Positions 8,746 to 36,994 of a stretch of 64,000 bases of DNA are shown here, in pieces. The notes below the pieces were generated by a model that made no database searches, was not told the origin of the DNA, and saw only the letters and a list, made by a program, of their open reading frames with translations. Location of the stretch: the NCBI RefSeq assembly GCF_041260155.1, contig NC_091938.1:16832219-16896218 (forward strand), read 5' to 3'. The first letter of the stretch is position 1. Each line of letters begins with the position of its first letter. Source of the stretch: Ptychodera flava (lineage: Eukaryota; Hemichordata; Enteropneusta; Ptychoderidae). A program made the position numbers and the translations under genes.

Positions 8746-26636
<17,891 letters not shown>

Positions 26637-31774: not shown

Positions 31775-31950
31775 TCAGTCACTGACTTGTTCGCAGTGGG
31801 GTCTTGGTAGCTGTAAGGACTGTTGCAATGCTACATCATCTGACTGTGTGTAGTCTGAGTCAAAGTCATAGCCCATAATATGCGCCTGGCCCATCAGCCA
31901 ATCATAATCCCTGCATGACACGTAGGCTTCCATTAGCAGAGAGAAGAAAC
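31775..31950 (-). CDS. Phosphatase-like gene, exon 3
   Basis: Follows acceptor TTCTTCACAG and completes the Gly codon of RTG. Encodes GFFSLLMEAYVSCRDYDW and IMGYDFDSD, mirroring LLHLARSKK...AMGYQFDSD of domain 1, then a short tail ending HCEQVSD and TGA. The match to domain 1 is what identifies this exon. Confidence 0.85.
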
Positions 31951-34900
31951 CTGTGAAGAAATGAATTCATTGATAATAATTTCTGCACTTGGAAATTTAT
32001 TTATTTGGGTTATTTTATCAAAGTGAATACTCTTTTGGTGATAATTTAGCATGGTGTATTTTGGTGGTGGGGAGGGTAGTACGGAAAAGTCATAATGAGG
32101 CCATCAATTTTCCTAGAAGTCGAAAAAGCCACATGGTATACCAAAACAAGCGACCTAACGGCCGATATAGCTCTGCTGTGTTTATGTAGAGAATAACTAT
32201 TTTGACACATGTTGATGAAGAAGGTGGAAATCTTTGATAGCTCATTTCAGTGGCCAGAAAAAAGTTGCTAAAATAGCTGCAAAATTACACAATTGAAGAT
32301 TTCATCATAATCTGAATATATCACATTTGATCATCCCTAAGAACATGTCAACCAAAGCTATCTGATGAGTAGTTTTTTGAGAATGAAATTTTCTGACCAA
32401 AAATGGCAAACATTGCCCCAAAATAAAAATTGCAGATTTCTCCATAATTTCAATATATCATATATTAAAATAATCCCTTGGAACCTGTATACCAAATATC
32501 AAAGCTATCGACTTGCAGTTTTTGAGAAAAAAAAAATTTAACCAAAAATGGCAAAAATTGCCCAAAATACAATGTGCCCAAAAAATATAAATATGCAAAT
32601 TTAACCATGATTTGAACAAACTTAAGTAAGGTCACCCAAAGTGAACTGCATATATAAAATTTCAAAGCAATCGGACTTGCGGTTTCAGAGGAGAAGGCAA
32701 TTGTTGACAGACGACGGATGATGGACAACAGATGACAGACGACGGAAGATCAACCTATTTGATAAGCTCCGTGTCGCTGACAGCGGAGCTAAAAAGCGAA
32801 AAAATCCCCACCCCATATTGGAATGGACAGTCCCTAGATCCAGTCTAACTCACCATCTTACTAACTGACAACAATCATGCAGAGTATATGCTGTGAGGGT
32901 GACCGTAGATCATTAAATTACACTCAAGGGTGTAGAACTCTAGTAATTATTCAAAATTTTTGTACTTTTCTGCCACAGTTTGCAGTTAATGTTTTCAAAA
33001 CTGGGACAAGTTGATATATGTATACCAGTCTCACCTGTGCGATACCCAATTGTACAGTGCATTAGAATGGGCGGCCTGTGTTGCGTTGCTATTTCCGCTA
33101 TTCTGTCCCTGAACTCGTGAAATATTCTGACACCATCACTGCCGCATGGGTAAGCTGTAAAAAATAGTGTGACCACCATATTACTTCACAGATAAATACA
33201 CTTAACAGAAAGGCCTTGTATTAGCATATGTGTCTATTGCATCCAATCAGTGCGCTCAGTAATTTTGGGACATCTACATGTAAGTCATGGTTATGCATGT
33301 TTGTAAGTCCTTGTGCCAAGTTTAAAAGAAATCTGTCAAGGAATGTCGGAGTAACGGCTGTGGACAAAAAAAAAACACAACAAAATGACCATGTGGCACA
33401 AGTGAGGTTGATTGATCTTGCTTTTGAATAAATGGAGAGGGAGACGAAAACAATCCCAAAATTATTGAATAACAAGTCATTGACAAAGACATAGTCCCCA
33501 CTTGTAATAGGAGTATTAGTCTTGATGGGGCAGGGAAATGTGGTCATTAAGAAGTATCACTGGAGTGTATATGTTGAGATCTATGGGCACATAGGTCTAT
33601 GTCGTTGTTCCCAATTTGAAACACATGAGGCATGTCTATTAAAGTTATGGTTCTAAATCGGGAAAAAAGATCAGACCTCTAGCTGTATTGGCTAGCCAAG
33701 AAATAAATATGTGCATAATAATGAGGTACAAGATGTGATATCTTAAGGTCTAATATCCTATCAGAATTGGAGGGTATAGAACTTGTGGTTACCGAGTTAT
33801 GCATATGTATGTATAATCAAGGTCAAAGGTCATCAAGGTCACGTGACATTTTGAAAAAAATTTGTTTTGCTAATTAATCCCTATATGCCAAAAATCAGAC
33901 CTCTAGCTCTATTCCCTTGCCCAGAATTAGATGTGTGCATAATTAATGAGGTAAAGCGTGTGTTGTCATAAGGTCTCCCACCCTACTAAATATAAAGGAC
34001 ATAGCACTTGTAGTTATGTATTTATCGACATAAACATATATTTCAGGTCGAAGGTCATCAAGGTCACATTACATTTGGTCAAAAAATTTCTATCTTATAG
34101 TTATCCCTATATACCAAAAATCAGACATCCAGCTCTATGGGTTTGCTCAGAATTTGATATACGCATAATTAATGAGGTCTATTGGCCAGAGGTCCATATA
34201 TCTTTCTTTCATGAATTTGACTTTGTTTGTGTACCGTCTATTTACTGTCCGTTCTGTGCTGTTTTGTGTCTATGTTTACAACTATTGTCTTACAAATTTT
34301 GACCTAGTGTTATTGGATTATGGATTGGTATGATTGCGATTATTGTACAGTATGAAGCATCATAAGGTCTCCCATCATACCATATATAAAGAGTGTACCA
34401 CTTGTGGTTACTGAGTTATGGACAAATATGTATATTTGAGGTCAAAGGTCACCAAGGTCACATGACATTTTGTCAAAAAAAATTGTAGTGCTAAGTTATC
34501 CCAATATACCAAAACTCAGACCTCTAGCTCTATTAGCTCGCTCAAAATTAGATATGCAAATAATTAATGAGGTACAATATTGTGACGTCATAAAGTGTCC
34601 CATCATACCATACATGAAAGGTGTAGCACTTGTGGTTACTGAGTTATGGACAACTATGTATATTTGAGGTTAAAGGTCACCGAGGTCACGTGACATTTTG
34701 TCAAAAAAATTGTATTCCTACGTTATCCCTATATACCAAAAATCAGACCTCTAGCTCTATTGGTTCGCTAACAATTAGATATGAGCATAATTAATGAGGT
34801 AAAATATGTGGCGTCATAAGCTCTCCCATCATACCATATATGAAGGGTGTAACACTTGTGGTTACTGAGTTATGGACAAATATATATATATTTGAGGTCA

Positions 34901-36527
34901 AAGGCCACTGAGGTCTCGTGACATTTTGTCAAAATATCTGAGATATCTGCATGAGCTTATGGACTCACGGATGGACTCACGGACAGACATGACCCAATCT
35001 ATAAGCCCCCTGGACTTCATCCGTGGGGACTAAAAACTGTGTCACTGCATCCTTTTTGCAATATGAATACGATGAGAAACTAAATTTTTATTTTTCTTGG
35101 CCTTATGCATGGGAGTCTATGGACTGCCTTATACATGGGAGTCTATGGACTGCCTTATACATGGGAGTCTATGGAGACTGCCTTATACATGGGAGTCTAT
35201 GGAGATGAAAACTAAAAAGTCCTCTAATACGACCAAATTTGATCGCATTGTGAAACAAATCGACGTGCATCTGTATGGGGTAGGGTACTATCGTTGTGCA
35301 AAGTTTGAAAGAAATTGACCAGGGCATGTCTGAGATATCTGCGTGAACGGACGGACGGACAGACGGACGCACGCACGCACGCACGGACATGACCAAACCT
35401 ATAAGTCCCCCCGGACGGTGTCCGTGGGGACTAAAAAGCATTACTTGGGGAGTAAGGTTTACCCAGGTTACTTGGAACTTACGCGCCGGAATGTGATAAT
35501 AAGGGATGCCAGCTTCTCTGAATGCTTGTCTCTCCAACTCTGCGTTATAGCCAATTTCATCACCGAATTCGTTTTCGTTTTGAAGTTCAACATTCCAGGG
35601 AGAGTTTGGAGAAATGTAGCCATTCGATTTATTCGGATCGATGCGTGTTTCTAATAATCTGAGAATAAACTGTCGGTTCCCTTTAAAGTACGTCTGCGTC
35701 CCAGCTGGGATGTTGAGAAGAGTCACCTCTTCCTGGGAAGGTTGTCCAGAAATGATGGATGTCTTCCCTTGCCTCATGTTGATGACAGCACCAAATCCGG
35801 CTGATTTGATCATCGGGATGTGACTTCTCCAAACCTGTCCGGCATCGAAGAATGTCGGTGACACGAACTTGGCCGGCCAGTACTCCCGCCACTTGGCAAG
35901 CTCACTGGGTGACTTGGTTACGATGGCAACAGGTGGTTCTCTTGTTGCCTTGGAAACTAAAGATACGACGTGTGCATCACTATCGAACTGATAACCCATG
36001 GCGTTGCCAATTCGGTAAAATTCCTTCGACTGCTCTCCATCTTTTGGCGCTAATTTCTTTGATCGGGCGAGATGTAAAAGAACAGTCAGTGATGACGTGT
36101 ATGTGTCGTTGCAAAACACAAGAACTGGTTTTGGAAGACCTTTCACGACGGCCGCGAACTTGTCGACATTGTCCAAGGTCAAGTAGTTTTGGGCGACATC
36201 GACGCTCAATACTTCATATTTTAATCGGAGGGTGTAATTCGTCATCTCTCTGATTTCTCTATTGCTTGGCAAATACTCATGGCCAAGCCAAGCTGGGGCG
36301 CTGATATCGAAGACAGAAATGATAGATTTAAATCCAGTTTCGGCGGCGTATTTGATCTGTCGTTCCGATAATCTTCCCGCCGTGAAGAAATCCGCAGTTA
36401 TTCGCTTGGTCCACCATACTTTGGATGGGTTGAATGGCGTCGGAAACTGTGCGATCGTGACCGGACAAATAGCACCGTAAATCAATAAAGCTTGACATAT
36501 CAAAGTTTTTAGAGTGACACGTGACAT
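31775..36527 (-). CDS. Secreted tandem DUF442/BLH-like phosphatase domain protein (3 exons)
   Basis: Exons 36527-35483, 33154-33035 and 31950-31775 join in frame (phases 1 and 1, GT/AG junctions) to 446 codons plus TGA. A signal peptide is predicted (hydrophobic residues 5-26, likely cut after VTIA). Two homologous domains follow. Domain 1 is about 36-192 (VWWTKRITADFFTAGRL..., strand PVLVFCND, tail AMGYQFDSD); domain 2 is about 214-425 (EYWPAKFVSPTFFDAGQV..., PILMHCTIGYRTG, tail IMGYDFDSD). Domain 2 has a Cys382-X4-Arg387 loop, the form seen in DUF442/rhodanese-like phosphatases. In domain 1, Cys139 is followed by NDTYTS with no Arg, so it is probably inactive. The substrate is unknown; secretion suggests an extracellular or lumenal phosphoester. 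Minus-strand start has A at -3. The family call is from motifs, with no search behind it. Confidence 0.82.
32165..32791 (+). mobile_element. Dispersed repeat in phosphatase intron 2
   Basis: AGCTCTGCTGTGT.TATGTAG, GATGAAGAAGGTGGA and GATAGCTCATTTCA match 61440-61550 in reverse. Repeated 'AAAATGGCAAA..TTGCCC' units follow, with ACAGACGACGGA words near the end and an AGCTCCG...CGGAGCT terminal palindrome. Confidence 0.7.
33035..33154 (-). CDS. Phosphatase-like gene, exon 2 (active-site loop)
   Basis: 120 bp after acceptor TTTTTACAG. Encodes PYPCGSDGVRIFHEFRDRIA...PPILMHCTIGYRT, i.e. the helix and the catalytic loop of domain 2. The donor ACAG|GTGAGA leaves phase 1. Confidence 0.85.
33230..35436 (+). 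mobile_element. Pearl-like element with about 230-bp tandem core, in phosphatase intron 1
   Basis: At least five core copies carry GAGGTCAAAGGTCA, CACGTGACATTTTG, TATACCAAAAATCAGACCTC and CATAATTAATGAGGT at spacings of about 224-235 bp (one gap of 387). They are followed by a four-copy, roughly 30-bp repeat (35100-35210, TACATGGGAGTCTATGGA), an (ACGG/ACGC)n run and a terminus GTCCGTGGGGACTAAAAA. ACRG microsatellite plus tandem core is the layout of pearl/Helentron-derived elements. Confidence 0.7.
35483..36527 (-). CDS. Phosphatase-like gene, exon 1
   Basis: 348 codons plus one base, covering the signal peptide, all of domain 1 and most of domain 2 up to YYHIPA. The donor GTAAGT occupies 35482-35477; the frame stays open past it only because it runs into repeat DNA, so the exon ends here. 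The antisense frames are shadows. Confidence 0.85.
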
Positions 36528-36704
36528 TGTTGGTCGTATCTGTACTTTATAATAGCACTAAATCAAATTTCCGATGTTGTTTAAATTTGCACACACTGTA
36601 AAGGCTGTGGCTAGCGGTCCTTCCCCTCTAGGCGAAAACGAAGACTTGCCCAAACTATCCTACCATACAAAAAGAGAGACAGTTACTTCAGTAAGCACAC
36701 ATTC

Positions 36705-36818
36705 ACCAGTGATCTACTCAGCTCTGGGCCTATGCGCCCCATAGGCGTGTGTACATATGCCTCTGTATGTACACACGTCTATGGGGCGCATAGGCCCAGG
36801 GCTGAATAGATCACAGGT
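36705..36818. repeat. Palindrome 1 of twin pair upstream of phosphatase gene
   Basis: Arms of about 53 bp with four mismatches (GTGATCTACTCAGC..., TATGCGCCCCATAGGCG, TGTGTACATA) around a loop of about 8 bp. Confidence 0.88.
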
Positions 36819-36851
36819 GATTGTGGTTAGCACAATGGACGTACAACAGAC

Positions 36852-36994
36852 CACAGTCACCTGTGGTCGGTCTATTCCGCTCGGCGTCTATGCCCCCATA
36901 GACGTGTGTACATATGCCTGAGAAGTAGACATATGTACACACGTCTATGGGGGCATAGACGCCGAGCGGAATAGACCGACCACAGATGACTGTG
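36852..36994. repeat. Palindrome 2 of twin pair
   Basis: Arms of about 65 bp, nearly perfect (CACAGTCACCTGTGGTCGG, TCTATTCCGCTCGGCGTC, CCCCCATAGACGTGTGTACA), loop about 13 bp. The loop-proximal CCCATAG.CGTGTGTACATA is shared with palindrome 1. Confidence 0.9.

Follow-up and report, generated by a model that had tools for sequence, protein, structure and literature searches.

What kind of protein is encoded by a three-exon gene of the hemichordate Ptychodera flava, and is it the phosphatase as which it was first described? The gene lies on the minus strand at 31775..36527 of a stretch of 64,000 nucleotides (NCBI RefSeq assembly GCF_041260155.1, contig NC_091938.1, positions 16,832,219 to 16,896,218 of the forward strand), here called the window, to which all positions refer. 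An earlier note on this DNA had read the product as a secreted tandem phosphatase, born of internal duplication, with a dead first and an intact second active site. The two-domain DUF442-like gene with a leader is real and unusual: its product very probably consists of an N-terminal hydrophobic leader followed by two DUF442/BLH-like domains. For its activity, we tentatively favor sulfur-transfer chemistry over phosphate hydrolysis or pure binding, with a probability of about 0.4. The labels "phosphatase" and "dead" are not supported as stated.

Gene structure

The gene is present in one copy within the window. As read from the sequence, its exons (36527-35483, 33154-33035 and 31950-31775) join into a frame that is uninterrupted over 1341 nucleotides (nt) and encodes 446 residues. 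The 446-residue frame, the two introns and the outer ends of the gene had been proposed in the earlier note and were recovered here.

35483..36527, minus strand: exon 1, with the ATG at 36527 and donor GTAAGT; encodes leader, domain 1, linker and start of domain 2 (residues 1-348, plus base 1 of codon 349)
33035..33154, minus strand: exon 2, 120 nt, phase 1-1, with acceptor TTTTTTACAG and donor GTGAGA; active-site loop of domain 2 and, by family likeness, a helix and a strand
31775..31950, minus strand: exon 3, with acceptor TTCTTCACAG; rest of domain 2, C-terminus and, at the low end, the stop codon
31630..31635, minus strand: AATAAA, possible poly(A) signal, 140 nt past the stop codon

Both introns are of the GT-AG type and in phase 1, with lengths of 2328 nt (GTAAGT...ACAG) and 1084 nt (GTGAGA...ACAG). 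The stop-free frame around exon 1 spans 462 codons, and a further AATAAA is located 204 nt downstream of the stop codon. It is hardly credible that the exons are not joined in a single transcript or that the gene is decaying; the many repeats in intron 1 would fit such a reading, but the clean frame, the canonical and phase-matched splice sites, the poly(A) signals and a DUF442 profile match whose last stretch (residues 329-420) crosses both splice junctions argue against it.

Exon 2 is symmetric and carries both Cys382 and Arg387 of domain 2. According to the gene model, its skipping would preserve the frame but delete the domain 2 site, owing to its length of 120 nt and its phase.

Assignment of both halves to the DUF442 family

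The domains and their conserved tails were located as follows.

35991..36410, minus strand: domain 1, DUF442-like, residues 40-179, from Pfam, NCBIfam and own-profile matches
35483..35873, minus strand: first part of domain 2, from residue 219, with an insert of ~60 residues relative to the bacterial rows
35976..35999, minus strand: MGYQFDSD, tail of domain 1, residues 177-184
31853..31876, minus strand: MGYDFDSD, tail of domain 2, residues 414-421

Bacterial rows were collected from plasmid records, 7 loci of genome_contigs, the 3 genomes behind those loci and 20 further regions, and also from 200 Pseudomonadota genomes, 54 of which contained PF04273 (at least 30 loci). We obtained 70 open frames with a DUF442-type domain at 1e-3 or better, each with a single domain and none with two. 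After 6 identical rows were dropped, 64 distinct domain rows were retained; by loop, they comprise 36 with CRSGTRS and similar, 12 with CASGNR, 10 that are 3gxg-like and 6 with CX5R. The rows are almost all from Pseudomonadota, and counts over them are not independent because two repeat, with a different cut, a gene already among the rows, and seven from Shewanella/Marinobacter are near copies. In the bacterial genomes represented by L063, L064 and L065, two adjacent, separate DUF442 genes carry unlike loops (CRTGNRS with CASGNRAG or CGSGARAK).

Scored with our own profile of the 58 non-CX5R rows, domains 1 and 2 reached 45.0 and 44.1 bits, whereas the best of 2000 shuffled controls per half gave 5.7 and 6.1 bits, respectively. 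The tandem arrangement seen earlier is thus confirmed. Along the whole protein, this match covers residues 40-157 and 219-256 besides the stretch that crosses the junctions. PF04273 also matched the whole protein in two stretches (E 2.6e-5, 24.9 bits, just under the gathering score of 26.1), and so did TIGR01244 (E 8.2e-8, 32.4 bits; cut-off 85.85). Half 1 alone scored 14.1 bits with PF04273 (E 0.061), and a Pfam search with half 2 alone returned no PF04273 match. No rhodanese family was found among the Pfam and NCBIfam matches up to E 10, a range in which the HMMER filters drop weak ones. A single-sequence search of the PDB gave nothing better than E 0.6; one rhodanese chain was matched at E 1.7 and 0.6 by sequence and at 0.033 with profile A1, and 3f41 was a weak match to the same profile (E 0.0049).

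To place the halves within DUF442, profiles of six rows were drawn 40 times per group, with a single profile for CX5R. Domain 1 scored mean values of 34.4 bits with CRSGTRS, 22.8 with CASGNR, 11.0 with 3gxg-like and 10.5 with CX5R rows. The corresponding values of domain 2 (25.6, 21.9, 17.5 and 21.9) do not resolve it between the groups. Both halves carry the GY tail seen with CRSGTRS loops (GYQ and GYD). By identity, the nearest rows are L002 and L005 for domain 1 (24% each) and L024 for domain 2 (31%). L024 and L005 each combine DUF442 and an FAD oxidoreductase (Pyr_redox_2) in the layout that would be expected of sulfide:quinone fusions.

Using tblastn, matches were obtained in 10 plasmid records (best E 8e-3) and 4 phage records (best E 2e-2), with the best place on domain 1 in 9 and 4 of them, respectively. 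The tenth plasmid record, from Paenibacillus, matched antisense to the annotated genes and yielded no DUF442 row. Single-sequence searches gave no pattern matches in viral_contigs and 38 in genome_contigs, none of the latter confirmed; viral scans with a bacterial DUF442 query and with alignment A3 gave 9 and 24 pattern matches, again with none confirmed. Domain 2 alone found nothing in 299 Pseudomonadota genomes, a result that is uninformative because none of those genomes had a known match.

Active-site loops and proposed chemistry

The motifs on which the phosphatase reading had been built, FFTAGR/FFDAGQ, FCNDTYTS/HCTIGYRTG and the two tails, were verified in the translation. The loops are as follows.

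36096..36113, minus strand: domain 1 loop, C139-N-D-T-Y-T144; Cys retained, Thr in place of both Arg and Gly; N-glycosylation sequon at N140-D-T
33039..33056, minus strand: domain 2 loop, C382-T-I-G-Y-R387, an intact CxxGxR

In the family alignment, the loop Cys is present in all 64 rows and the loop-end Arg in 58, standing one place later in the other 6. The alignment places both loops in the six-residue register, unlike the HCX5R loop of tyrosine phosphatases; CTIGYR of domain 2 fits CxxxxR and CNDTYT of domain 1 does not. Thr occurs at neither the loop Gly nor the loop-end Arg position in the 64 bacterial rows, indicating that the loss of Arg in domain 1 is real and, in this sample, unusual. 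The claim that Arg was lost in half 1 only holds.

What this loss means depends on the enzyme family used as the yardstick. In the available excerpts of the literature, the DUF442 domain of Xylella Blh is a sulfurtransferase (PMC5823870), and so is that of a sulfide:quinone oxidoreductase with the loop CRTGTR (PMC8533005), in which R99I removed ~95% of Reaction 1 (thiosulfate + cyanide) and abolished Reaction 2. A review at odds with PMC5823870 states, in the part available, that CstB has a rhodanese domain but no sulfurtransferase activity (PMC9369223). The loop of rhodaneses also has six residues, and of 13 solved structures, 8 have Arg at the loop end, 3 have Thr and 2 have Ser; the loop of human TST is CRKGVT, and the T253V variant of this enzyme showed no Reaction 1 and retained some Reaction 2 (excerpts of PMC8533005). 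"Phosphatase" is unsupported as stated, since the loops are of DUF442 length and the activity measured for DUF442 domains is that of sulfurtransferases. As rhodanese loops may end in Thr, "dead" would be justified for a phosphatase only. Judged by the loop ends of rhodaneses, the site of domain 1 may be of the Thr type. Two observations weigh against this: the Gly lost in domain 1 is elsewhere in the rows replaced only by Asn or Ser, and a sequon adjoins Cys139.

In the mechanism we propose, the protein would enter the secretory pathway and act like the tandem rhodaneses TST and MPST. As the catalytic thiol, Cys382 of domain 2 would become an enzyme persulfide by attack on a persulfide or thiosulfate as sulfane-sulfur donor; Arg387 would polarize the donor, and the sulfur would then be handed to an acceptor thiol. 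Domain 1 could be a partner in shaping the cleft or in substrate binding, or could provide a weaker Thr-type site. It is very unlikely that both loops are live and form a two-center persulfide relay, Arg-type in domain 2 and Thr-type in domain 1, within one exported animal protein. If so, it would be a sulfur-transfer enzyme of the extracellular space or secretory pathway, and skipping of exon 2 would silence the Arg-type center in frame.

The earlier view, a secreted phosphatase of the protein tyrosine phosphatase (PTP) fold in which domain 2 is active and domain 1 a pseudophosphatase, is doubtful. Domain 2 retains H-C-x-x-G-x-R-T, and Asp355, 27 residues ahead of Cys382, has a spacing that would be possible for a general acid. 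3gxg, a bacterial DUF442 protein of exported type with the family loop CLANYRAS, is called phosphate-bound. Domain 2 scores equally with CX5R and CASGNR rows in sets of equal size (21.9 each), and Y_phosphatase3 matches half 2 alone at E 0.0077, under cut-off, in the Pfam search. Against these points stand the CX4R rather than CX5R loop, the sulfurtransferase activity reported in the excerpts cited above and the grouping of domain 1 with CRSGTRS rows. We consider it unlikely that both halves are non-catalytic, with the DUF442 folds serving binding or a structural role in the secretory pathway. The strong divergence of both domains (branches of 3.63 and 3.28 changes per column) and the domain 1 loop, which has a sequon and neither Gly nor Arg, are consistent with it, but the domain 2 loop matches the family in its Cys, Gly and Arg.

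The DUF442 literature, in the portions available, deals with bacteria, in which the domain functions in sulfide oxidation, and among 24 papers containing words starting with DUF442, at least one of which concerns DUF4424, no title names an animal member. With an exported animal protein of two DUF442 domains, the secretory pathway would gain either sulfane-sulfur chemistry or a new phosphatase.

Origin of the two domains

The earlier note had derived the gene from internal duplication, which is plausible; fusion of two DUF442 genes is the alternative. Domains 1 and 2 share 29 of 137 aligned residues (21%), and identity to the bacterial rows reaches 24% (median 17.6%) for domain 1 and 31% (median 21.4%) for domain 2. 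Duplication is thus not established, because the halves are no more alike than each is to bacterial rows. Direct comparison gave E 0.001 by blastp and E 5.6e-4 by hhalign (probability 29.8), and the score between the domains was attained by 2 of 2000 shuffles in local and 96 of 1000 in semi-global alignment. In the tree, whose two long branches are given above, forcing the domains into one clade costs 0.09 log units (p-AU 0.46), so that it neither shows nor rejects such a clade. The introns have no position in common, with none in domain 1 and two in domain 2.

The shared MGYxFDSD tail had been taken as a mark of duplication. Its GYD part is the family's own and does not bear this out; FDSD is special, being absent from all 70 bacterial domain rows. 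Together with the W.....FF.AG-like start of both domains, FDSD argues for common descent inside the gene.

Leader, sequons and cysteines

The leader was assigned as follows.

36450..36527, minus strand: putative signal peptide, residues 1-26, on the basis of hydropathy, with signal-peptide cleavage predicted behind VTIA (-3,-1 rule)

The Kyte-Doolittle maximum of the protein (2.06, 15-residue mean) falls in the segment starting at residue 9. This N-terminal hydrophobic stretch resembles a signal peptide and suggests entry into the secretory pathway. Of the term "secreted", the hydrophobic leader stands, and the signal peptide, judged from hydropathy, is putative. N-glycosylation sequons are located at N97, N140 and N299, and the cysteines beyond the leader are 139, 352, 382, 401 and 441.

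Surrounding sequences

Intron 1 contains ~5 copies of a ~226-nt unit of a repeat family (33666-34935), with a 122-nt core that is 70-91% identical to the reference copy, and a 26-nt tandem repeat of 3.9 copies (35100-35203). Two near-perfect palindromes resembling foldback elements, with arms of 60 and 68 nt (92% and 97% complementary), lie at 36698-36994, 170-470 nt upstream of the start codon. On the plus strand at ~21090-21590, we found an exon of CASC3/Barentsz (Btz domain, E 1.5e-5; CASC3 chain in the PDB, E 2.6e-13), to which low-complexity open frames up to ~26754 may also belong.

Comparison with known systems

The receptor tyrosine phosphatases, to which the earlier note had likened this protein, also pair one intact with one altered catalytic domain (D1/D2). 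The parallel fits poorly, as their active domain comes first and has a CX5R loop, whereas the intact loop comes last here. Tandem PTP-like phytases (3f41) are likewise exported two-domain proteins of the PTP fold but have a CX5R loop and phytate chemistry.

The tandem rhodaneses, human TST and MPST, share the plan of two homologous domains with a six-residue loop, and in TST the classical loop is found in the C-terminal domain only (excerpts of PMC8533005). They differ in that the Rhodanese family was not matched here, so that we point to a likeness of plan and claim no membership; TST is, moreover, mitochondrial according to the same excerpts.

The Shewanella DUF442 proteins 3gxg/3gxh resemble the present protein in the N-terminal leader of 3gxg relatives, the Tyr before the loop Arg (CLANYR, CTIGYR) and an IPV/IPA strand; unlike it, they have a single domain and no GYD tail, and both halves score lower with their profile. 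With DUF442/BLH_phosphatase proper (PF04273, TIGR01244; the Blh sulfurtransferase domain, the DUF442 domain of sulfide:quinone oxidoreductase and 2f46), the protein shares the GY(D) tail and, in domain 2, the six-residue loop from Cys to Arg; a model of domain 1 hints at the same fold, and modelling this domain without an alignment was uninformative. It departs from them in having introns, a leader peptide, two domains per chain, the second with a large insert, and a Thr-ended loop in domain 1.

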